64,000 nt of DNA from the NCBI GenBank assembly GCA_017302455.1, contig JAFLDO010000009.1, positions 1 to 64,000 of the forward strand. Direction: 5' to 3'. The notes beneath the pieces were generated by a model. That model had not been told where the DNA came from. It did not search any database and was given only the letters and a program-made list of their open reading frames with translations. The position numbers were made by a program, and so were the translations under genes. Each line of letters opens with the position of its first letter. Positions within the stretch are counted from its first letter, which is position 1. Of this stretch, positions 53,648-63,733 are shown piece by piece. Source of the stretch: Accumulibacter sp. Its GTDB lineage: Bacteria > Pseudomonadota > Gammaproteobacteria > Burkholderiales > Rhodocyclaceae.

Positions 53648-55207
53648 ATGAAAAAATTCGGTTTGTCGTTGATCGCTCTGTCGCTGTTGCCGATCCCGGG
53701 CTGGGGTAACGACATTGGCGCCGAGGTGCAGTCGGCCGCAGCGCCGAAGACACCAGCAATCAAGACCATCACCAACTTTACTCAGTCGTTGCGCTGCATG
53801 GATGAGCTCTTGTACGCCTACGGCAAGCAAGGCATCGCCATCACCTCAACCGGCATCCCCGATGAAACGGGCAAGGTGAAGACGGGTACCAAGGAGATGT
53901 TGATCACTGCCGTCTCCAAGATGACCGTCAAGAGTAACGCGTTTGATTTCATTGACTTCCATTCCGGGGCCGATGACTTGGGAGCGCTGTTCGCGGCGCG
54001 TGGCGATCAGAATCGCCTCATGCCTGACTATTACATTCGCGGCTCGATCACTCAGATGGACGACAACAGCGTCCGCAAGAACAAGGGTGTCGGATTTTCG
54101 CTGCCGTTCCTTGACCTCGGGGTGTCGAAGGATGACGCCTACGACTTGATCAGCATGGACCTGAGTATCGGCGATGCCGCCACGCGCAAGATCATTCCGA
54201 TCACGAGTACCTCGAACACGCTGGTTCTCATGAAGGGTGGTATATCGGGTGAGGGTGGCGGCAAAATTGGTAAGGTCGGCTTGAGCTTCAACATTGACGT
54301 CAGCCGTAGTGAAGGCGTCGGCGCGGCGACCAGGACGCTCGTCGAACTGGGTCTCATCGAAACGCTGGGCAAGTTTACCCAAGTGCCATACTGGAAGTGC
54401 CTGGACACGGATCTGACCAATCCGCTGATTCGCGAGCAGGCGCGGGAGTGGTTCGACAATGCCAAGGAGAATGATCGAATCCTTTTCGTGCAGCGCAAGC
54501 TCGCCGGGATGGGACGTTATGACGGTCCGCTCAATGGTGCAATGAACGCGACGCTAAAGACTTCGATCTCCGAGTACCAGGCGGCGAGTGGTTTGATTGC
54601 TGACGGTACGATAAACTTTGATCTTTATGCCAGCCTGCTTGACAACCTGCAAAATCAAATTGCTGCGCTTCCGGCGGCCGGAGGTCCGAAGTCGAACTAT
54701 GTTCCCGGTGTGAGCCCGGCCAGCCGGCCGCCAGCGGTGACGCAAGTGGTTGCGACACCCGCAGCTGGACCGATGAATGCGCCCAACCCGATCTTCAAGA
54801 TGAAACTTGACACCGATCGGGGGAGCAAGCCGGCGTACCGTGTCGGCGATTTTCTCAACCTGACGTTGTCGATGAATACGCAGGGTACGGCGTATTGCTA
54901 CTACCAGGATGTATCAGCGACTACCGCGCGGATATTCCCGAATCAGTTTCGCTCCGATTCGTCAGTCCCCGCCGGTGCTGGCGTAAGGATACCGTCTGGC
55001 GGCTTCAAGATCAGGTTCGACCGGCCAGGACCCGAGCGGGTCGCTTGTATTGGCTCAGACCGTGAGTTGGTGATCCCAGGATCCTTGCGTGGTGCGCGCG
55101 ATCTATCCCCTCTGCCCGTCAAATCGGTGGACGAGGTTATCGGCCAGTACAAGCAGAACAATCCAAGTGCGGTGGTCAGCATGGTTGATATCACGGTCAG
55201 TCAGTAG
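53648..55207 (+). CDS. exported CsgG-like protein with peptidoglycan-binding and DUF4384 domains
   Basis: The 519-residue product starts MKKFGLSLIALSLLPIPGWG, a signal peptide without a lipobox cysteine. Residues about 35-240 resemble the CsgG fold, the outer-membrane curli export pore: a YYIRGSITQMDD strand, then ISMDLSIGDAATRKIIP and AATRTLVELGLIETLG. Residues about 275-335 are a peptidoglycan-binding module (VQRKLAGMGRYDGPLNGAMN), and about 385-490 is a DUF4384 domain (YRVGDFLNLTLSMNTQGTAY). DUF4384 often co-occurs with caspase-type proteins, as here. Lack of lipidation distinguishes it from CsgG. It is the first gene of a tight plus-strand cluster. Confidence 0.75.
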   Translation: MKKFGLSLIALSLLPIPGWGNDIGAEVQSAAAPKTPAIKTITNFTQSLRCMDELLYAYGKQGIAITSTGIPDETGKVKTGTKEMLITAVSKMTVKSNAFDFIDFHSGADDLGALFAARGDQNRLMPDYYIRGSITQMDDNSVRKNKGVGFSLPFLDLGVSKDDAYDLISMDLSIGDAATRKIIPITSTSNTLVLMKGGISGEGGGKIGKVGLSFNIDVSRSEGVGAATRTLVELGLIETLGKFTQVPYWKCLDTDLTNPLIREQAREWFDNAKENDRILFVQRKLAGMGRYDGPLNGAMNATLKTSISEYQAASGLIADGTINFDLYASLLDNLQNQIAALPAAGGPKSNYVPGVSPASRPPAVTQVVATPAAGPMNAPNPIFKMKLDTDRGSKPAYRVGDFLNLTLSMNTQGTAYCYYQDVSATTARIFPNQFRSDSSVPAGAGVRIPSGGFKIRFDRPGPERVACIGSDRELVIPGSLRGARDLSPLPVKSVDEVIGQYKQNNPSAVVSMVDITVSQ

Positions 55208-55220
55208 CGTAGCGAATGAC

Positions 55221-55721
55221 ATGGCGACCCAACTTCCTTCTTTGCCGCAGGATCTGCCCCGTCTCTTGGGACTGGTCCCCGCAGCGATCCTTGGCTGTTT
55301 CCTTGTCGTATCGAGCCAGCCTGCAGTTGCTGAGATCATTGTCGGAGGGAGTGGTGGTTCGGCGCCCGGAGGCGGTGTCGCATCGCAGGGCGCTCGCGAC
55401 GCTCGACAGCGTGCGACAGTCGAACGCTGGAAGGGTGACGGCGACATGAACAGTCCGAACGTCGTTATCATCAATGGGGTTAACAACGGCGTCGGTGGAA
55501 ATGACTGGTCCGCTACCGGCTCACCGGCTGCCAATAGCGCCGCGCACAACAAGAGGCGGGCCACTGAGAATCGCGTCTTTCTTGGCGATGACGCGCCAAC
55601 CCCGGCCGTTGTCGTGGTCCCTTCCGGACAGAATGCTGCCCCTTACTACGGCTCGCCGGCAGAAGAGTCGGCGTCGAGGAACGCTGCGCGCGCCAACGCG
55701 TACCGGCAGCGCAATGATTAG
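55221..55721 (+). CDS. secreted protein of unknown function
   Basis: This 166-residue protein has a signal-like hydrophobic segment near residues 18-36 ending at PAVAE, followed by a glycine- and serine-rich stretch (VGGSGGSAPGGGVASQGA), an Asn-rich middle (VVIINGVNNGVGGN) and a charged, Ala/Arg/Asn-rich C-terminus. I recognise no family. No cysteine is present in the mature part. It starts 13 bases after the CsgG-like gene, and an earlier ATG at 55216 is in another frame. The low-complexity composition fits an extracellular or fibre-associated protein. Confidence 0.6.
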   Translation: MATQLPSLPQDLPRLLGLVPAAILGCFLVVSSQPAVAEIIVGGSGGSAPGGGVASQGARDARQRATVERWKGDGDMNSPNVVIINGVNNGVGGNDWSATGSPAANSAAHNKRRATENRVFLGDDAPTPAVVVVPSGQNAAPYYGSPAEESASRNAARANAYRQRND

Positions 55722-55759
55722 ATGATGCCGCGTCGGCGCAGCCTTGAGGAGAGTCACCA

Positions 55760-56086
55760 ATGAGGTTTCCTGCAGCAGTTTTCTTGTTTGGTTTCTCGCA
55801 ACTGACCGCTGCGCAAGTGTCAATCGATCTTCCTGGTGTCAGCGTGAAGACCGGGGCGGGGTCGTCCGTCTCCAAGTCCGGGAACACCGTGGCTAACGAG
55901 AAGGGCGTTATCAGTCCCGATGCTGACGTTGAAGGCGTGGTGATCATCAACGACGCTCTGAGTATTGACGGCGTACCGATTGCTCGGGGAGTCACGGAGT
56001 ACGTTTCAAAGAAGACAAGGAAGGTTTATTCCATCCGGTGGGGAAAGAAGGGTGAGGGTGTGACCGTCACCGAGAAAACCCGATGA
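55760..56086 (+). CDS. small secreted protein with GNTxANExGVI motif
   Basis: The 108-residue protein starts MRFPAAVFLFGFSQLTAAQV, a signal peptide. Residues 41-51 read GNTVANEKGVI, nearly identical to GNTAANEAGVI in the small secreted protein encoded at 58300. The rest is strand-rich (VEGVVIINDALSIDGVPIA). AGGAGAG precedes the ATG. It is probably a structural relative of the other repeat proteins in this locus; function is unknown. Confidence 0.65.
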   Translation: MRFPAAVFLFGFSQLTAAQVSIDLPGVSVKTGAGSSVSKSGNTVANEKGVISPDADVEGVVIINDALSIDGVPIARGVTEYVSKKTRKVYSIRWGKKGEGVTVTEKTR

Positions 56087-56128
56087 CAAGGCCGGCCCAA
56101 CGGTGTTTTGGTTGAACTGGAGGAACTC

Positions 56129-57034
56129 GTGCGTTTGCCTCAATTCGTGAATCGCGTGGTGCTGGTGCTTGGACTAGCGGCGGGCTTGCTGGGAAGCGCG
56201 TTCGTCGGTGCTTTCGAGGTGAAAGAGGGCGACCTGAAGACGATCTTCTACGCCAAGACCGATGTACCTGTCGTCTGGCGTTATACGCCCAACAGCGAGG
56301 TGATGATTCTCGACATGCCGGGACTCGAACTGTTGGGTCGGACGTTCAACCGGGTCACGCAGTTGACTGAACAGCAGTACACGGAGGCCTATCCACGTGT
56401 GCTGACCTCGCAAGAGCTCTCACGATACATCGGCAATGCACACCGCACCTTTGCGAACTTTGCTGCCGGTCATGATCTGCGCATTTCCGATCTTGTCCAG
56501 TTCTTCAACCTCGCCGACCGCGACAAGGTTGAGCTGTTTCCAGAGGAGTATGCGCTGCGCGATTTTCTCCTGCAACAAGGCCTGATCAAGGAGTGGCGCG
56601 GGTTCTACCAGGCGCAGAAGCCGCATTCGATCATCCTGTCGATCCCACAGGTCCAGGACCGGCGGGGGAACGAGCCTGCGCTGACGAGTCAGGCCCGCTA
56701 CGCGATTCTGCTGCATGAACTCTCGCACGCCGAGTTTCACACCAACGCGGCCTATAACAAGTACTGCAGGGGTTTTTGGGCGAGCGGACTGACGGAGTCG
56801 CAAAGAGAGGCTTTCAGGAAATTTCTCGCGGGTATGCGTTACTCGGTGGAAAACGAGGAGCTTGTGATCAACGAAATGCAGGCGTATCTGGTATTCACTC
56901 CGGATGCCGGAGCGTTTTCGGCCGCCAGGCTTGGGGTTTCCGAAAGCTCGCTGGCTGGTATGCGCGAGGCATTCGTACGCGGCCGACCGCCAGTGCAGCT
57001 ACCGTTGCGGGTCAAGGCAGGGGAGTTGCCATGA
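56129..57034 (+). CDS. secreted putative zinc metalloprotease (HELSH)
   Basis: The 301-residue product starts at GTG 56129 after GGAGGA, followed by a signal peptide to about residue 28. It contains HELSH at 196-200, an HExxH zinc motif, with Glu249 in INEMQAY as a likely third ligand, a gluzincin-like arrangement. The rest is helical and matches no family I can name. It could process the small secreted proteins encoded beside it. Its TGA overlaps the next ATG (ATGA). Confidence 0.7.
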   Translation: MRLPQFVNRVVLVLGLAAGLLGSAFVGAFEVKEGDLKTIFYAKTDVPVVWRYTPNSEVMILDMPGLELLGRTFNRVTQLTEQQYTEAYPRVLTSQELSRYIGNAHRTFANFAAGHDLRISDLVQFFNLADRDKVELFPEEYALRDFLLQQGLIKEWRGFYQAQKPHSIILSIPQVQDRRGNEPALTSQARYAILLHELSHAEFHTNAAYNKYCRGFWASGLTESQREAFRKFLAGMRYSVENEELVINEMQAYLVFTPDAGAFSAARLGVSESSLAGMREAFVRGRPPVQLPLRVKAGELP

Positions 57035-57342
57035 GTAAACGTTTCTCGATGGGATGGTGCGCTGTTTTTCTTGTCGGGGCAGGGATACCCCTGTCGTGTC
57101 TGGCGCAGAAGACGACGCGCATTCAGGGAAATACCGAGATCAATGCCTCGTCGAACAACACGACGGCTGTCGCAGTCGGTAGCAACGTGGTCGCCAAGAA
57201 CCGGGTTGGCGTTGTCCAGGGTGACAAGAAGGGAAACACACGCATCAACGTTTCGACCTCGAACGTCACAACGGTTGTCAGCGGAAGGAACAAGAAAGCG
57301 TGTACAAACATAGGAGCGATTGTCAGCGATGAATGCAAGTAA
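57031..57342 (+). CDS. small secreted repeat protein
   Basis: The 103-residue protein has a signal peptide ending near SCLAQ. The mature part consists of two copies of a unit of about 35 residues: GNTEIN at 33 and GNTRIN at 68, each followed by an Asn-rich turn, a Val-rich strand and Gly. The pattern GxTxI-x5-N-x3-V-x2-G is shared with the protein at 58300. It ends in a Cys pair (Cys91, Cys102; final ECK). The strand-turn periodicity suggests a solenoid or fibre subunit reminiscent of, but not homologous to, curlin. Confidence 0.65.
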   Translation: MSKRFSMGWCAVFLVGAGIPLSCLAQKTTRIQGNTEINASSNNTTAVAVGSNVVAKNRVGVVQGDKKGNTRINVSTSNVTTVVSGRNKKACTNIGAIVSDECK

Positions 57343-57634
57343 ACCCATACTGGCGCAGTACCTTGTCGCCGCCATCTTCTGTGCGACGACCGGCGTCGCC
57401 TCTGCCGTGCAGAACCTCAATGCGTCTTCGCAGACCAAGGTTAATAATGCCATGGCGAAGGCTTGGCAAAAAGGCGGTAACCCTAACGATCCGGCCTTGC
57501 AGAAGCGGGTAGTCAATATCGGAAGCAAGAAGGCCGGGACGTGCGACGTCAACGTCGGGACGGTTCAGCCCGGGCAGAGGGCGCCGAAGGACATCGTCGT
57601 GACGACCAAAGAAGTTATCAACGTGTGCAAGTGA
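57329..57634 (+). CDS. small secreted cysteine-containing protein
   Basis: The 101-residue product has a signal peptide to about residue 26 (GVASA). The mature protein carries two cysteines, one in GTCDVNVGTV and one at the end (INVCK), like the C-terminus of the previous protein (ACTNIGAIV, ECK). It overlaps that gene by 14 bases in another frame, a tight coupling suggesting the two are made in fixed ratio. I recognise no family. Confidence 0.6.
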   Translation: MNASKPILAQYLVAAIFCATTGVASAVQNLNASSQTKVNNAMAKAWQKGGNPNDPALQKRVVNIGSKKAGTCDVNVGTVQPGQRAPKDIVVTTKEVINVCK

Positions 57635-57642
57635 GAGAGCCC

Positions 57643-58251
57643 ATGAAAACGAACCTGTATCGAGTGGCCCTGGTGGCTGCTTTCGTGACCCTGACCGGTG
57701 GTGCAACCGTGCTTCCCGCCGCGGCCGCTGACGATGAGACGTCCAGTCTCGATGAACTACGGCGGGCGATGACAGAGCCGTCCGAGGCTCCAAAGAAGAA
57801 GCGGACGCGGGCTATCGTCTTCGATGGCGACTCGGCGCAAGCGCCGGCCAGCGCGGCGCCGGCTGCCGCCGGCGGTGCTCTGGACTGTGCAGCCCTGCCA
57901 CCGGATGTGAGGGCGACGGCTGTCCAGTTTCCCATCCAGTTTCGTCCGGGCAGTGCGAACATAACGCCAGCGTCTGGTAACACCCTCATCGAGATAGCAA
58001 AGATTCTGTCGCTGACGCCCGATCGCTGCATCATTGTCGAAGGGCATACCGACGCGGAGGGCAATGCCGATAGGAACATGGCACTATCGCGTGATCGTGC
58101 AAACTCTGTGGTGAAGTTCATTTCTGACAAGGGAGCGGTTGAACGGAGACGCCTGGTGCCGGTTGGCAAGGGTTCAACCGATCCGCTCAAGGACCTCGAC
58201 CCGCGCGACTCACGGAATCGTCGCGTTGTGTTCAAGGTTGTCGCCGGCTGA
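57643..58251 (+). CDS. OmpA-domain exported protein
   Basis: The 202-residue product has a signal peptide cut near PAAAADD, an Ala-rich linker and a C-terminal OmpA-like peptidoglycan-binding domain (about 90-200) with HTDAEGNADRNMALSRDRAN and the closing SRNRRVVFKV. OmpA-like domains hold envelope structures onto peptidoglycan. It is 8 bases after the preceding gene. A second OmpA-domain protein is encoded later in the locus. Confidence 0.88.
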   Translation: MKTNLYRVALVAAFVTLTGGATVLPAAAADDETSSLDELRRAMTEPSEAPKKKRTRAIVFDGDSAQAPASAAPAAAGGALDCAALPPDVRATAVQFPIQFRPGSANITPASGNTLIEIAKILSLTPDRCIIVEGHTDAEGNADRNMALSRDRANSVVKFISDKGAVERRRLVPVGKGSTDPLKDLDPRDSRNRRVVFKVVAG

Positions 58252-58299
58252 CGGCAGACATCGTTATCGTCATCATTATTTCTATCCAGGAGAAACCTT

Positions 58300-58590
58300 A
58301 TGCGCACCATCAGCACCTTGATCATCGCCGCCGCCTTTGCCGCCTCCCCTGCTTTCGCCCAGAAGACCGAAGTCAAGGGCAAGACCGAAATCGACGCCAA
58401 GCAGGAAAATGTTGCTGCTGTCGCGATCGGCAAGGACAATACGGCGAAGAACACGGCCGGCGCCATCAAGGGCGATACGAAGGTTCAAGGCAACACCAAG
58501 ATCAAGGCTGAGCAAAAGAACGCCGCCGCTGTCGCAATCGGCAAGGGCAACACCGCAGCCAACGAAGCCGGCGTCATCGGCGGCAAGTAA
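58300..58590 (+). CDS. small secreted protein of two 37-residue repeats
   Basis: The 96-residue product starts MRTISTLIIAAAFAASPAFA, a clear signal peptide, followed by two repeats beginning at GKTEID (27) and GNTKIK (64), each with AVAIGKxNTA and AxNxAG. There are no cysteines or aromatic residues in the mature chain. The even, strand-turn character is what a small beta-solenoid or amyloid-forming subunit would show. AGGAG precedes the ATG. It is the last gene before a strong terminator, so it is the end of the first transcription unit and may be highly expressed. Confidence 0.7.
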   Translation: MRTISTLIIAAAFAASPAFAQKTEVKGKTEIDAKQENVAAVAIGKDNTAKNTAGAIKGDTKVQGNTKIKAEQKNAAAVAIGKGNTAANEAGVIGGK

Positions 58591-58603
58591 GTTTCCGGTC
58601 CTG

Positions 58604-58645
58604 AGGCTACCGCTGACGGATGCTCGTCAGCGGTAGCCTTTGGTT
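58604..58645 (+). terminator. Rho-independent terminator closing the first unit
   Basis: A 15-bp perfect stem, AGGCTACCGCTGACG (58604-58618) with CGTCAGCGGTAGCCT (58625-58639), a 6-base loop and a following T-rich run. It separates the 53648-58590 genes from the FecR-caspase genes. Confidence 0.88.
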
Positions 58646-58914
58646 TTGTGAGCCGAGAAGGACAGCATCGGCATCAAGTACAACACAAGAGGCGAGGGAA
58701 GGGCTAAGATTCCGGCTTGGCGGCGAGTCGGTGGCACTTCGGCCGCCAAGAGGCGCAGCACCACAGCCGAGGACATAGGGTGCGAGGGACCGGAGGAAGG
58801 CAAGCAGTGGCTGTCGCAGATCGGTTGTTGCCGAGCGACGATCTTCTAGCACGTCCCCGTTGAGCGCCTGAACGCGATACGCTTTTCCGACCAACGCCTT
58901 TGTGGAAATCTGTC
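58640..58914. other. spacer between the two halves of the locus
   Basis: No gene is evident. It should hold the promoter of the second unit, but I see no convincing -35/-10 pair. Confidence 0.45.
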
Positions 58915-59409
58915 ATGTTCAGAACAGGAATGCACAACACAATTCCCGTCACCGTAGCCAAGGGCGTTTTTTGCCTGTTCTTGCTGCATACGGGGACGGC
59001 CCGAGCAGCCGAACCTGGCGCGCCAGGGGCCCCCATCTGGGGCGCCCAGGTCAAGGTTTCCCGCGGTGTTGTCAGCATTGAGCGCGACGGGCAGCGCTAC
59101 CCGGGTATCGTCGGTGCGCGGTTGAAGGAGAAGGATGTCATCCAGACTGGCGGAAACGGCTCGGTCGGCATCATGTTCAATGACAACTCGACCCTTTCGC
59201 TTGGCCCGGATGCGGAGGTGCTGCTGCAACGCTATGCTTACGATTCGACGACGTACATGGGCGCCTTCGATGCCTACATCAAACGAGGGACCGTCTCCGT
59301 GCAGGCAGGCAACATCGCCAAGCAGGCGCCAGAAGCCATGCGGATGGTAACTCCGAAAGCCGAGGTCACGGGAACGGCGAAGAATTACGTTGTCAGCGTT
59401 GGGGAATAG
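58915..59409 (+). CDS. exported FecR-domain protein
   Basis: The 164-residue product has a signal peptide ending near TARAAE and a FecR domain (about 48-145): VSRGVVSIERDGQRYPG, then LKEKDVIQTGGNGSVGI and IMFNDNSTLSLGPDAEV. FecR domains in this setting are periplasmic beta-structures, without the cytoplasmic anti-sigma part of true FecR. The start may instead be the ATG at 58930. It is followed 3 bases later by an OmpA lipoprotein gene. Confidence 0.8.
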   Translation: MFRTGMHNTIPVTVAKGVFCLFLLHTGTARAAEPGAPGAPIWGAQVKVSRGVVSIERDGQRYPGIVGARLKEKDVIQTGGNGSVGIMFNDNSTLSLGPDAEVLLQRYAYDSTTYMGAFDAYIKRGTVSVQAGNIAKQAPEAMRMVTPKAEVTGTAKNYVVSVGE

Positions 59410-59412
59410 GGC

Positions 59413-60009
59413 ATGAAAAGGCTAGCAATCACACTCGCACTGTCTTTGATGACCACCGCGTGCGCGCATCGCGACACTTATGTGCTGCTTCCCGACGGCA
59501 GTGGGCAGGCCCCGGGGGCGCTTACCATCAAACCTGCGGAAGGTGGCAACGCACTCAAGCTGGATCAGCCTTACCAGACCGCCAGGTCGACCATGGGTGG
59601 CGGCCTGGAAGCGGGAAGAACCGACGAGCAGGAAGTCAGGAAGCGCTACGGAGCGGCGATCGACGCTTCGCCGCCACCGCTAGTCCGCTTTACGCTGTAT
59701 TTCCTCGAGGGTAGTGACGAACTGACGGCCGCCTCGAAGACTGAACTCGTGGCCATTCTGGCGGAGATCAAGGCGCGGCCGGTCCCTGATATCGTCATTG
59801 TCGGTCACACCGATCGCGTGGGGATGGTCGCCGATAACGATCGCCTGGCGCTACGGCGGGCAGACTCGTTCAGGAAGAAGCTGCTGCAACAAGGCATCGC
59901 AGACGAGGCGATACAGACGGCGGGTCGTGGTGAACGCGAGCCGCTGGTCAACACGCCGGACGAGACGCCTGAACCGCGCAACCGTCGGGTCGAGATTCTC
60001 GTCCGTTGA
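59413..60009 (+). CDS. OmpA-domain lipoprotein
   Basis: The 198-residue product starts MKRLAITLALSLMTTACAHR with a lipobox TTAC (Cys17), so it is probably an outer-membrane lipoprotein. The C-terminal half is an OmpA-like domain (VIVGHTDRVGMVADNDRLAL, ending RNRRVEILVR). The N-terminal half is short and unclassified. With the first OmpA protein it could anchor the system to peptidoglycan from both sides. Confidence 0.88.
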   Translation: MKRLAITLALSLMTTACAHRDTYVLLPDGSGQAPGALTIKPAEGGNALKLDQPYQTARSTMGGGLEAGRTDEQEVRKRYGAAIDASPPPLVRFTLYFLEGSDELTAASKTELVAILAEIKARPVPDIVIVGHTDRVGMVADNDRLALRRADSFRKKLLQQGIADEAIQTAGRGEREPLVNTPDETPEPRNRRVEILVR

Positions 60010-60031
60010 TGCTTTTGGTGAGGGACGCGGC

Positions 60032-63025
60032 ATGATCACCAGAGTGTTGCACGCGCTGGTGTTGTTCGGCTTGGTCGTCGGTCAGCTTGTCGGTGGGGAG
60101 GCACAGGGGCAGGTGTCCGTCGAGCCGATCCTGCGGATAGAGACTGGGGGCCACCAGTCCCTGGTTACGCGTGTGAGCACCGATGCCCAGGGACGCTGGG
60201 TCCTGACCGCCTCCGAGGACAAGACGGCCCGTCTTTGGGACGCCGCAACCGGTAAGTTGCTGTCCGTGCTGCGTCCGCCCATTGGCCCCGAAGGTGTGGG
60301 GGCAATCTACGCTGCGGCGCTATCGCCAGATGGCAAGCAGATCGCCTTGGGCGGCAACGCAGCGTTCGACGGCAAGACGCATTCCCTTTACCTGTTTGAT
60401 CGCGCTTCCGGCCGGCTGCCCGCGAAAAGCACTCTGTCCGGGCTCGAAGCTCCGCTGACGCAGTTGGCGTGGTCGAAGGACAGCCAGTTGGTAGCGGTTG
60501 GTCTACGGCAATCCGGTTTGCGGGTGTTTCAGCGCAACCTCGGATTCGTCGGTAGCGACCCCGAGTACAACGAGGCGATCTATGGGGCGGATTTTTCGAC
60601 TGACGGGCGGCTGGTGACGTGCAGTCTCGACGGTAGCGTCCGCCTCTATCGCGTAGACAAGAAAGGGCTGGTCCGGACAGCGCGCAAGCAGTTGGCGTCG
60701 GGTCGCCCCTACTCGGTCGCGTTTTCTCCGGATGGGAGCCTGATAGCCGTCGGCTACCAGGATGCCGGGCACATCGACGTGCTCGACGCCGCTTCGCTGA
60801 CACCGGTGTACGCAACGCCGTCGAGTAAGGAAGGTAACCTCGGCCGCGTTGCCTGGACCGGTGATGGGCGGGTGCTGATCGGTGCCGGAACAGCCAGGGC
60901 GAACGAGCGCTTTGCCGTCTTCGCTTTTGGCGATGCTGGTCGGGGCCCGGCGCGCGAACTCGCTGGCTTCACCAACATCGTGACGGCACTGGCGCCTCTT
61001 CGGGATGGAGTTATCGTGGCGACCGCCGAGCCCTCGTGGGCCAGCTTTGATGCTGCGGGAAATCGTCGGCTTCTCGCCCGGCCGCAGACCGGCGACTTTC
61101 GTGATGCCGGAGACCGTTTCAAGGTTTCAGTGGACGCACAGCTGGTCTCGTTCCCGACCATTCCTGGTGGCGAGAGCCTCGTCTTCGATCTGGTGAAGGG
61201 TGATCTGCGTCGCCCCGGGTCAGAGGCGAAGGTCGAGCCACCGCGACAGCCTGGTTGGGGTGGTGGCCCGAGCAACTGGAAGAATTCGACGACGCCGAAG
61301 CTGGGTTCGCGCCAGCTGCAGCTTCGTCCCGGGGAGGTTTCGAGGAGCGTGGCGCTTTCCCCGGACAAGCAGCGCTTCGTCCTTGGCACGGAATGGTATC
61401 TGCGCGCTTTCGATAGCGAGGGCAGTCAGGTTTGGGAGCAGAGAACGCCGGCAGCGGTATGGGCGACCAACATCAGTGGCGACGGCCGATGGGTTTTGGC
61501 CGCACTCGGGGACGGGACGGTTCGCTGGTATCGCATGCAGGACGGCCGAGAGCAGCTTTCCTTGTTTGTCCATGTCGATGGCAAACGTTGGATCATCTGG
61601 TCGCCTGCTGGCTTCTACGACACCTCGCTGGACGGCGAAGACCTGGTGGGCTGGCACCTGAACAGAGCCATGAACCAGGCGTCGGATTTCTTCTCGGTGG
61701 GTCGTTTCCGCGACCGATTTTATCGTCCGGAGATCATACAAAGCATCATCCAAACGGGCGACGAGGGCGAAGCCATCCGTCAGGCACAGGCCGCTGCTGC
61801 CGCCCTGGCGGCGACGGAACCGCCCGCCTTGCCCGCTACGGCCGGGGCAAGCAAGGGTGCGGGTTCGCTGCCACCGCGACCAGCGGTAGCCGTAGAGAAG
61901 ACCGCCGTGGCGACGGTGCTGCCGCCGGTGATCGACCTGCAGACCGAAAGCCAGATCGAGAGCTCCGCCAGCACGGTTCCTGTGCGTTTCGTGCTGCGTA
62001 GCCCGAGCGACGCACCCGTGAGCGAAGTCAAGGTGCGCGTCAATGACAAACTTGTGCGCTCGCTGGACAACAGGGCGTTGCGGAGCGCCCGCGGGGAAGC
62101 CCAGGAAGTTCAGGTGGCGGTACCGCCGGTCGATAGTCAGATCAGGCTGTTCGCCGCCAACAAGTACGGCAAGTCGGAACCGGTGGTGATCAATATCCGG
62201 CGTAGCGCGGCGCCATCCGGCAAGGTTGCGGAAACGCGTTTTGAAACCCTCTACCTCTTGATCATCGGTGTCAGCAAGTACCCGGAGGAGTGGAAGCTGG
62301 ATCTTGCCGAGAAGGACGCGCGTGACTTCAATCACCACATGGTGCGTCAGGCCGGCCAGCTCTATGGGACGGCTCAGCCGCGCTTGTTGATCAACGAGCA
62401 GGCGAGCCGGGAGAAGATCCTCGAAGGATTGCGCTGGTTGAGGGAATCCGTTGGCGAGAAGGATGCCGGAGTGGTCTTCATGGCTGGTCATGGCGACCGG
62501 GTCGGGTCAGCCTACTACTTCATTCCCGGTGATCCCGACGTGCTGCCGTCGCGCTCGGAGTTCAAGAGTACGCAGGAGTTCGACGCGTGGAAGCAAAAGA
62601 ACGCGCCGAAGCGGTGGGTGCCGGGTGAGGAGATCTCTCGTACTCTGCTTGGCCTGAAGGGTCGTGCGGCATTTTTCATCGACACCTGCCATTCCGGGAT
62701 CAACGCCCGTCCGGGGCAGTCAACGAATCCGGACCTGACCAAGGCCCTCAACGAGATCAATGAGGAACGCGGGGTGATCGTGTTCGCCTCGTCGACCGGC
62801 AAGGAACTCTCGCAGGAAGACCCGGCCTGGGGCAACGGGGCGTTTACCAAGGCCATCATCGAGGGAATTCGCGGTGGCGCAGACTTCAGGAAGGATGGCC
62901 TGATTCGGCCGTCGACTCTGCAGAGCTACGTTACCGATCGAGTGATGGAGTTGACGAAGAAGGAACAGCGACCGGTGATCTTCACGGTCGGTATTGATGA
63001 GCCGATTGCCGTTAGGGGGCAATAG
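60032..63025 (+). CDS. exported WD40-repeat caspase-family protein
   Basis: This 997-residue protein has a signal peptide (ITRVLHALVLFGLVVGQLVG), a WD40 propeller from about residue 40 to 560 (TASEDKTARLWDAATGK, VAFSPDGSLIAVG, VALSPDKQRFVLG), a linker rich in Ala and Pro, and a C-terminal peptidase C14 domain. The catalytic dyad is present: His820 in VFMAGHGDR and Cys886 in FFIDTCHSG. Caspase-like proteins are usually cytoplasmic; here the signal peptide places it in the periplasm or outside. The combination with FecR, OmpA and CsgG-DUF4384 genes is notable. It could process the secreted repeat proteins. Confidence 0.88.
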   Translation: MITRVLHALVLFGLVVGQLVGGEAQGQVSVEPILRIETGGHQSLVTRVSTDAQGRWVLTASEDKTARLWDAATGKLLSVLRPPIGPEGVGAIYAAALSPDGKQIALGGNAAFDGKTHSLYLFDRASGRLPAKSTLSGLEAPLTQLAWSKDSQLVAVGLRQSGLRVFQRNLGFVGSDPEYNEAIYGADFSTDGRLVTCSLDGSVRLYRVDKKGLVRTARKQLASGRPYSVAFSPDGSLIAVGYQDAGHIDVLDAASLTPVYATPSSKEGNLGRVAWTGDGRVLIGAGTARANERFAVFAFGDAGRGPARELAGFTNIVTALAPLRDGVIVATAEPSWASFDAAGNRRLLARPQTGDFRDAGDRFKVSVDAQLVSFPTIPGGESLVFDLVKGDLRRPGSEAKVEPPRQPGWGGGPSNWKNSTTPKLGSRQLQLRPGEVSRSVALSPDKQRFVLGTEWYLRAFDSEGSQVWEQRTPAAVWATNISGDGRWVLAALGDGTVRWYRMQDGREQLSLFVHVDGKRWIIWSPAGFYDTSLDGEDLVGWHLNRAMNQASDFFSVGRFRDRFYRPEIIQSIIQTGDEGEAIRQAQAAAAALAATEPPALPATAGASKGAGSLPPRPAVAVEKTAVATVLPPVIDLQTESQIESSASTVPVRFVLRSPSDAPVSEVKVRVNDKLVRSLDNRALRSARGEAQEVQVAVPPVDSQIRLFAANKYGKSEPVVINIRRSAAPSGKVAETRFETLYLLIIGVSKYPEEWKLDLAEKDARDFNHHMVRQAGQLYGTAQPRLLINEQASREKILEGLRWLRESVGEKDAGVVFMAGHGDRVGSAYYFIPGDPDVLPSRSEFKSTQEFDAWKQKNAPKRWVPGEEISRTLLGLKGRAAFFIDTCHSGINARPGQSTNPDLTKALNEINEERGVIVFASSTGKELSQEDPAWGNGAFTKAIIEGIRGGADFRKDGLIRPSTLQSYVTDRVMELTKKEQRPVIFTVGIDEPIAVRGQ

Positions 63026-63049
63026 TTTTCTTGACAGGGGGAGTACAGC

Positions 63050-63733
63050 ATGACGAACAGTCGTTTCACCTTGCGTCGTAGCGCCGCAGCGCTGGCGAGC
63101 GTAATTCTTGTGACGGCCTGCGCGACGAATCCGGATGGTTCGACAAGGATGGACGACCGAGCAACCGGTGCACTCATCGGTGCGGCAGCCGGATGTGCCG
63201 TCGGCGCGGCCGTGAACGGCGGCAAGGGTTGTCTGGTTGGCGCGGCAGCAGGGGCGGCGGTGGGCTTCCTGATCGGCTGGTACTTCGAATCGAAGAAGAT
63301 TGCCAGTGCGAACGACGTCAATGCCGAGTACAAGAAGAAGAAGGGTCAGGTCGTTCCCAAGGACGACGTCAAACCGGCGAAGTTCGATACGGTTGTCAAG
63401 CCCGGTGTGCCGGAGAAGGACGGGCAGCGGGAAGTGCAGGTAACGTCGAATACGGACCTCATCGGCTATGGCGACAAAGCTCCGGAGGTGACCCAGAAGT
63501 ACGCGATCTACGACGAGAACAACAAGCTGGTCGAGGAGAAGAGTGAGCGTGTGGCCGCCGTGGACGGCGCGGGCCGCTATCAGACGGACTCCAAGTTCAA
63601 GCTGCCGGCGTCGGCCAAGGGGAAGAAGTACACGGTCAAGACGAGCCTTGTCGCCAACAACCAGACCTACAAGGAGAACTCGTACAAGGTCTCGGTCCTG
63701 GACGATGGCTTCATGATCGCTATGGCCAATTGA
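63050..63733 (+). CDS. glycine-zipper lipoprotein
   Basis: The 227-residue product has a lipoprotein signal with VTAC (Cys24). Residues about 38-80 form a glycine-zipper membrane helix pair (GALIGAAAGCAVGAAVNGG, GAAAGAAVGFLIGWY), and the C-terminal region (about 90-227) is charged and strand-rich. Glycine-zipper proteins can oligomerise in the outer membrane. It is the last gene of the second unit, before a strong hairpin, and begins after GGGGGAG. Confidence 0.75.
   Translation: MTNSRFTLRRSAAALASVILVTACATNPDGSTRMDDRATGALIGAAAGCAVGAAVNGGKGCLVGAAAGAAVGFLIGWYFESKKIASANDVNAEYKKKKGQVVPKDDVKPAKFDTVVKPGVPEKDGQREVQVTSNTDLIGYGDKAPEVTQKYAIYDENNKLVEEKSERVAAVDGAGRYQTDSKFKLPASAKGKKYTVKTSLVANNQTYKENSYKVSVLDDGFMIAMAN

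Follow-up and report, generated by a model that had tools for sequence, protein, structure and literature searches.

A conserved and apparently undescribed gene cluster of Candidatus Accumulibacter that pairs a CsgG relative with small exported repeat proteins

This work concerns twelve genes that occupy positions 53648..63733, all on the + strand, of a 64,000-nucleotide stretch of DNA (the window) from contig JAFLDO010000009.1 of Candidatus Accumulibacter. The first eight genes (unit A) encode a relative of CsgG together with small exported repeat proteins, an OmpA-family protein, and a putative zinc peptidase; the last four (unit B) encode a FecR-domain protein, an OmpA-family lipoprotein, a WD40-caspase, and a further lipoprotein. 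A prediction made earlier from the sequence alone (the original prediction) had described an exported-protein locus in which nearly every gene has a signal peptide or lipobox, and this description stands: all twelve genes were confirmed at their coordinates, each begins with a hydrophobic, signal-like sequence, and genes 10 and 12 have a lipobox (all judged by eye). The proteins it named are all present, although the FecR gene was left out of its title. Our observations are of gene content, co-occurrence, adjacency, CsgG kinship, and sequence repeats. The features are as follows, with protein lengths in amino acids (aa).

53648..55207, + strand: gene 1, 519 aa; CsgG-like domain (residues ~35-254), PG_binding_1 (276-329), and DUF4384 (397-472); candidate outer-membrane export pore tethered to peptidoglycan
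55221..55721, + strand: gene 2, 166 aa, exported; NRxRA-like motifs that recur (by eye); unassigned in Pfam; least conserved member
55760..56086, + strand: gene 3, 108 aa, exported; conserved IDG...YxSxKTxKxYxI part (by eye)
56129..57034, + strand: gene 4, 301 aa, exported; motifs HExxH and NExQAY; putative gluzincin-like zinc peptidase, unassigned in Pfam
57031..57342, + strand: gene 5, 103 aa, exported repeat protein; two 35-aa units, with two Cys in the last
57329..57634, + strand: gene 6, 101 aa, exported; tail Cys pair C72, C100
57643..58251, + strand: gene 7, OmpA family, exported; candidate peptidoglycan anchor
58300..58590, + strand: gene 8, 96 aa, exported; two 37-aa repeats; candidate main subunit
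58603..58640, + strand: hairpin of 17 pairs followed by T residues; terminator-like, likely end of unit A
58915..59409, + strand: gene 9, FecR domain, exported; first gene of unit B
59413..60009, + strand: gene 10, OmpA-family lipoprotein; lipobox by eye
60032..63025, + strand: gene 11, 997 aa, exported; WD40 propeller and Peptidase_C14 (caspase) domain
63050..63733, + strand: gene 12, 227 aa, Gly-zipper lipoprotein; lipobox by eye

The genes are divided into two units, rather than treated as one, because genes 8 and 9 are separated by 324 bp containing the 17-pair hairpin and its T-rich tail. Spacing is far tighter within the units: -14 to 48 bp across genes 1-8 (unit A, 53648-58590) and 3 to 24 bp across genes 9-12 (unit B, 58915-63733). 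The hairpin at 58603-58640 has a folding z of -7.25 relative to shuffled sequences; terminator-like sites overall occur in the region at about the expected number (10 versus 10.5).

Conservation of unit A was surveyed in draws of 199 genomes from the family Rhodocyclaceae, 399 from the order, and 299 from the phylum, spread evenly over the larger groups. The number of candidates scored per genome was limited, so absences are not proofs. Matches to gene 1 were found in 28 of the 199 family genomes, of which 19 are close (at least 49% identity). Gene 4 occurs in 20 genomes, namely the same 19 plus one (G166) whose contig starts ~0.5 kb before gene 4, and the repeat family also occurs in 20, the same 19 plus one (G087) that has just a FecR-type fusion. 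That the same 19 of 199 genomes contain close gene 1 matches, gene 4, and the repeat family has a P value of 1e-25, phylogeny being ignored. Within the 19 genomes, genes 4, 5, 6, and 7 lie alongside gene 1 in every case and genes 3 and 8 in 18 each; G144 gave no gene 3 match, and gene 8 of G079 is on a separate contig. Direct matches to gene 2 were confined to the closest loci, and a looser cluster connects 19 loci. Judged by its sequences, then, unit A is a real system, whose genes occur in the same genomes and together. The original prediction had staked its reading on the genes co-occurring elsewhere; small repeat proteins, an OmpA gene, and the HExxH gene do accompany gene 1 in other genomes, so it came through that test. 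Gene order is not fixed: five of the loci (L050-L054) have their repeat, Cys-tail, and OmpA genes across gene 1 from the usual side and diverging from it. Within the genus, distribution is patchy (four of six same-genus genomes among those listed).

The association is not restricted to the family. Of the 299 genomes of the phylum draw, 7 gave a match to the repeat profile, five of them outside Rhodocyclaceae, and in four of these five the repeat proteins, a Cys-tail protein, a CsgG-DUF4384 gene, and an OmpA gene are found together. The fifth (L154) has OmpA, and there the contig end truncates the locus. At a second locus of G625 (L152), repeats and a fragmentary OmpA gene are present, with no CsgG-like gene in 19.9 kb. 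Across 42 gene 1 loci, exported repeat proteins were flagged among 80 of 493 signal-like open reading frames (ORFs) within 5 kb, versus 1 of 259 beyond, counts in which both groups include spurious and antisense frames and the loci are related to one another. Leaving out four loci fetched for their repeats (L150, L151, L153, and L155; L107 was also fetched after an adjacent repeat match) gives 67 of 443 near versus 1 of 247 far. By origin, the near and far counts are 42/229 and 1/130 for Rhodocyclaceae loci, 23/201 and 0/84 for 21 distant loci (L055, L056, L096-L112, L114, and L115), 13/50 and 0/12 for the repeat-fetched loci, and 2/13 and 0/33 for the window. From the order draw, the loci of 12 strongly matching genomes were taken (L096-L106 and L112), and G328, G365, and weak matches were left out; two loci are short (L102, 3.5 kb; L104, 6.7 kb). 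At least one flagged repeat ORF is present in 36 of the 42 loci. Cys-tail proteins show the same distribution, with 25 of 493 near versus 0 of 259 far.

Kinship of gene 1 with CsgG was judged by profile comparison. Pfam assigns DUF4384 (E value 1.1e-12) and PG_binding_1 (7e-5) to gene 1; its CsgG model (PF03783) reaches 12.2 bits against a cut-off of 20.8, a sub-threshold score that is insufficient alone. An alignment of 44 homologues (31 after filtering), with the signal peptide removed, was compared by hhalign with a CsgG family profile composed of the CsgG-family sequences of 25 loci and E. coli CsgG. The domain matched with an E value of 1.4e-8 and a probability of 95.5 over 189 columns, collinear to the domain end, and control comparisons of the CsgG profile with six other cluster families gave probabilities of at most 0.2. 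With 44 homologues and no signal peptide, the top score among 101 targets went to E. coli CsgG (31.6, versus 21.7 for the next); the remaining targets were 60 shuffles and 40 further proteins of E. coli. E. coli CsgG was also matched by a 29-homologue profile (E value of 1.4e-7), the signal peptide being part of that alignment. The stretches covered by the gene 1 alignment include the positions that we take to be those of CsgG's two membrane hairpins. Because of the profile match, the controls, and the first rank, we conclude from profile comparison over the whole domain that gene 1 is a CsgG relative, which bears out the CsgG-like candidate of the original prediction; that it forms a pore we infer from this kinship. 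The same genome also has, at G000:C94:87109-87552 (L001), its sole CsgG-family gene with a Pfam CsgG E value of 0.001 or less (6.6e-5).

The candidate cargo consists of small proteins, two of which repeat internally. Gene 8 has a period of 37 residues with 61% identity between units (0 of 2,000 shuffles as good) and gene 5 a period of 35 with 30% identity (2 of 2,000 shuffles). The original prediction had called the small proteins repeat proteins as a set, which is right for genes 5 and 8 and wrong for genes 2, 3, and 6, where shuffle-tested searches found no internal repeat. Relatives of gene 3 nevertheless group with the repeat family in a single BLAST cluster. Gene 8 ends in GGK, whereas genes 5 and 6 carry a Cys pair in their tails, and Cys-tail relatives of gene 6 adjoin CsgG-like genes in other loci. 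The gene 8 product is 96, 96, and 79% identical to those of three near relatives, and a second copy lies far from the cluster (G000:C94:15264-15551, L116; 267 of 288 bases identical); relatives, too, have copies that are distant or on other contigs (L125-L131). Searches of solved structures with gene 8 and gene 4 profiles gave no credible match. A YadA-type head was considered and rejected, the YadA_head model being touched by 2 of 19 repeat proteins with a best E value of 0.073.

The repeat unit also occurs singly. Seven ORFs of 251-316 aa (L118-L124), in seven Rhodocyclaceae genomes and outside the cluster, carry one unit at their extreme C terminus, and all seven match the profile of gene 9 (FecR) with E values of 2e-4 to 7e-9. 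By sequence, these FecR-type proteins ending in a gene 8 unit look as though that unit were a tag for incorporation into the same structure. In the genome under study, a 145-aa frame ending in a single repeat-like unit (G000:C32:35799-35906, L117) has no FecR match.

Two further components of unit A are a putative peptidase and an OmpA-family protein. Residues H196, E197, H200, N248, and E249 of gene 4 are invariant across 21 aligned orthologues, and we take the N-E pair to be the third-ligand motif. With HExxH and a downstream Glu motif in all orthologues, gene 4 would be a gluzincin-like zinc peptidase; one family member touches M90 at an E value of 0.047. Pfam places an OmpA domain in both gene 7 and gene 10, in agreement with the two anchors originally predicted, but the peptidoglycan-binding domain of gene 1 itself had been missed.

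On balance, and with moderate confidence, we interpret unit A as a system for CsgG-dependent export and assembly at the surface, equipped with repeat subunits of its own that are not curlins. In its best reading the unit is curli- or holdfast-anchor-like, with the caspase unit as a separable companion. As in curli, a CsgG-family protein is encoded with small exported repeat proteins. At 8 of the 21 distant gene 1 loci (L055, L056, L096-L100, and L112), moreover, a neighboring protein contains 4 to 12 copies of QxGxxN, which the excerpted text of PMC3521004 gives as the core of the minimal curli repeat; over positions 1-53000 of the window, the motif occurs at most once per frame. Such a multicopy pattern is absent from the other 13 of the 21 loci. 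In contrast to curli, the 35-37-aa units of genes 5 and 8 lack QxGxxN and are not similar to CsgA or CsgB, gene 1 is fused to peptidoglycan-binding and DUF4384 domains, and unit A has OmpA and HExxH partners. Models for curlin (PF07012), CsgE, and CsgF had no match in the whole genome, with a positive E. coli control. Because these models are empty here and positive in E. coli, unit A is, as far as sequence models tell, not a member of curli; it may be said to work like curli or HfaABD without belonging to them. The Pfam curlin repeat was also not found in nine repeat proteins from distant loci, and three of the nine gave no match to CsgA or CsgB above shuffles. The cluster suggests, in addition, that CsgG-type export serves noncurlin repeat proteins in a number of families within the order and also outside it.

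The proposed mechanism would run as follows. Sec would carry the products into the periplasm, as their signal sequences imply, and the CsgG-like domain of gene 1 would, by homology, oligomerize into an outer-membrane pore. Going by the domains present, this pore would be fixed to the cell wall via the peptidoglycan-binding domain of gene 1 and the OmpA protein of gene 7. Conserved adjacency points to the small repeat proteins as the substrates, which may exit through the pore partly unfolded, gene 8 as the main one and genes 3, 5, and 6 as minor ones. Outside the cell, the 35-37-residue units could be beta-solenoid rungs that stack into a fiber or surface layer, an arrangement for which the structure model is weak. 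Unlike gene 8 with its open GGK tail, genes 5 and 6 have a Cys pair at that place, and their products may serve as caps or nucleators of the structure; trimming or turnover of subunits is the probable task of gene 4; and FecR-type proteins ending in one rung would dock on the same array. Unit B, as a companion operon, may serve in monitoring the surface structure or in processing it; of the whole proposal, this role is the least certain part.

Several observations weigh against this interpretation of unit A. The profile from the 29-homologue alignment of gene 1 reached CsgG chains in the Protein Data Bank only at E values of 0.62-0.89, ranked under peptidoglycan-binding matches. AlphaFold modeled gene 1 with a predicted local distance difference test score (pLDDT) of 34, from just six close sequences (82-92% identity to the first). 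By eye, gene 1 of the window has no lipobox Cys, whereas 13 of the 29 homologues in the alignment, those at greater distance (rows L050-L054 and L021-L031), do. No match to CsgE or CsgF was found, which leaves the system without the customary proteins for capping and coupling. As a candidate curlin, gene 8 was rejected: its profile did not rise above shuffles against CsgA or CsgB, and PF07012 did not match. The AlphaFold model of gene 8 is weak (the best of five has a pLDDT of 62, the rest 36-38), with two three-strand sets 37 residues apart, and Foldseek returned for it two insignificant matches, at E values of 4.7 (the HET-s amyloid, probability 0.01) and 7.5, which are not used as evidence. 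Six of the 42 loci (L103, L104, L106, L109, L110, and L114) have no flagged repeat protein, although repeats are visible by eye at L109. Divergent CsgG-like paralogues at L107 (8012-13054) and L108 (8379-13892) have a small repeat protein upstream and, directly downstream, an exported protein of 1,010 and 703 aa, respectively, with motifs that recur by eye, an arrangement that in itself favors the interpretation. The repeat-unit model matched these proteins weakly (full-sequence E values of 0.24 for 703 aa and 0.79 for 1,010 aa), so their kinship with the repeat family is just suggestive. Finally, a study of the Accumulibacter granule secretome names, in its excerpted text, one curli protein, assigned to Flavobacterium, and puts its emphasis on pili and porins (PMC12019908).

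An alternative close to this interpretation is that unit A resembles a holdfast anchor, in which the CsgG-like protein and the repeat proteins tie exopolysaccharide to the outer membrane, as in Caulobacter HfaABD, rather than form a free fiber. In HfaABD, too, a CsgG-like protein has dependent surface proteins: HfaB is required for surface HfaA and HfaD, as stated in an excerpt of PMC6707917. The NCBIfam HfaB model matches gene 1 weakly (9e-4) and a paralogue at 0.0025, and domains of peptidoglycan-binding type in gene 1 and both OmpA genes would suit anchoring. However, gene 1 scores 18.5 bits with this model, far under the cut-off of 300, and its extra domains set it apart from HfaB. The family scans gave no HfaA- or HfaD-named match, the presence of such models in the library not having been confirmed. 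We regard the holdfast anchor as unlikely, though worth keeping in view beside export and surface assembly.

Unit B bears on a second alternative. Pfam identifies FecR in gene 9, OmpA in gene 10, WD40 in gene 11, and a Gly-zipper in gene 12. The last 267 residues of gene 11 match Peptidase_C14 (8.2e-15) and contain GHG and DTCH motifs, which we take to be the His/Cys dyad, so that by sequence the protein qualifies as a caspase. Caspases at least 53% identical to gene 11 were found in 9 of the 199 family genomes, all of which carry unit A (P = 8e-11, uncorrected for ancestry); with at most four candidates scored per genome, 10 of the 19 unit A genomes yielded none. Genes for FecR and OmpA adjoin unit A in 5 of 19 genomes and the caspase in 4 of 19. 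The caspase operon lies beside unit A in the window, in G129, G083, and G069 (inverted), and at the named loci L032 and L036. Five loci with the caspase away from unit A were compared: on another contig or far away, it is accompanied by FecR, OmpA, and lipoprotein genes in G125, G008, and G147, by only the lipoprotein gene in G157, and by none of them in G144, where a contig edge closes one side. Outside the family, a WD40-caspase (2e-90 to gene 11) lies beside unit A at L150, where a second caspase gene upstream (L150:3536-5365), with a sub-threshold DUF4384 match, stands beside the CsgG-DUF4384 cluster; this caspase-DUF4384 gene is possibly a functional hint for DUF4384. A defense-island reading was set aside; of six proteins, only gene 11 matched PADLOC models (generic caspase, 4.5e-6; HEAT, 5.6e-4).

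The whole 10 kb could then be one system, as originally predicted, with the caspase as a proteolytic arm acting on the fiber or on cell fate. Such a link would fit the confinement of the caspase to unit A genomes, the two caspase genes upstream of the repeat genes at L150, and the repeat units on FecR-type proteins. Against it stand the separate operon that adjoins unit A in just 4 of 19 genomes, the 10 unit A genomes without a detected caspase, the terminator-like hairpin between the units, and statistics that ignore shared ancestry. We consider a single system rather unlikely: by sequence and gene order, unit B is a stable operon that accompanies unit A and is separable from it, lying apart in some genomes and still linked to it by co-occurrence. 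That gene 1 has the CsgG-type fold but forms no pore, acting instead in the periplasm as a regulator or scaffold, with its repeat proteins staying there to reinforce the envelope, would suit the missing lipobox of window-type gene 1, its peptidoglycan-binding and DUF4384 domains, unlike CsgG, and the many paralogues outside curli systems that the Pfam CsgG model also matches (excerpted text of PMC3521004), but is distinctly improbable given an alignment with CsgG that presumably spans both hairpin stretches, lipoboxes in the more distant homologues, and adjacent repeat proteins, the pattern expected for exported cargo.

Within the preferred interpretation, CsgG-dependent export and surface assembly, a bolder extension may be drawn. 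HET-s, of HET-s/NWD2, is a two-rung beta-solenoid amyloid. The present family shares with HET-s/NWD2, as we take it, a pair of pseudo-repeats in each small protein and lone units attached to other proteins; it differs in units of 37 aa, in being exported, and in the insignificant fold match noted above. FecR-domain surface proteins and LapA retention modules offer a second parallel, in that gene 9 has a FecR domain and that gene 9 and two scanned single-unit proteins match retention modules weakly; the C-terminal repeat unit, in contrast, had no family match in the two single-unit proteins scanned. One could imagine a widespread new class of CsgG-exported fibers whose two-rung beta-solenoid subunits have no relation to curlin; single-rung FecR-type proteins would template, cap, or sense the fiber, and the FecR-OmpA-WD40-caspase operon would respond to its state. 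We hold this to be speculative and, as a whole, rather improbable.

The gene cluster is conserved and apparently undescribed. In the open-license literature, we found no paper combining CsgG with DUF4384 or Accumulibacter with CsgG, and among the titles and opening abstract lines listed there for curli, CsgG, DUF4384, and Accumulibacter, none describes this cluster. Wastewater treatment for phosphorus removal has still to establish which proteins build the Accumulibacter granule matrix. Excerpts of granule studies link curli to Flavobacterium or Kaistella and not to Accumulibacter (PMC12019908; PMC12016536). The cluster described here is a concrete candidate for the matrix, one missed by curli models, and could contribute to granule cohesion in this phosphorus-removing wastewater bacterium.

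A further set of genes recurs at or near unit A in 9 or 10 of 26 compared loci: a FecR-like protein (by eye, with no confident Pfam match), an autotransporter barrel, and a hydrolase-like lipoprotein. The autotransporter barrel had no match in the genome under study, in a search that had no positive control. An example of the trio is found at L039:1167-3822, with equivalents in L050-L054.

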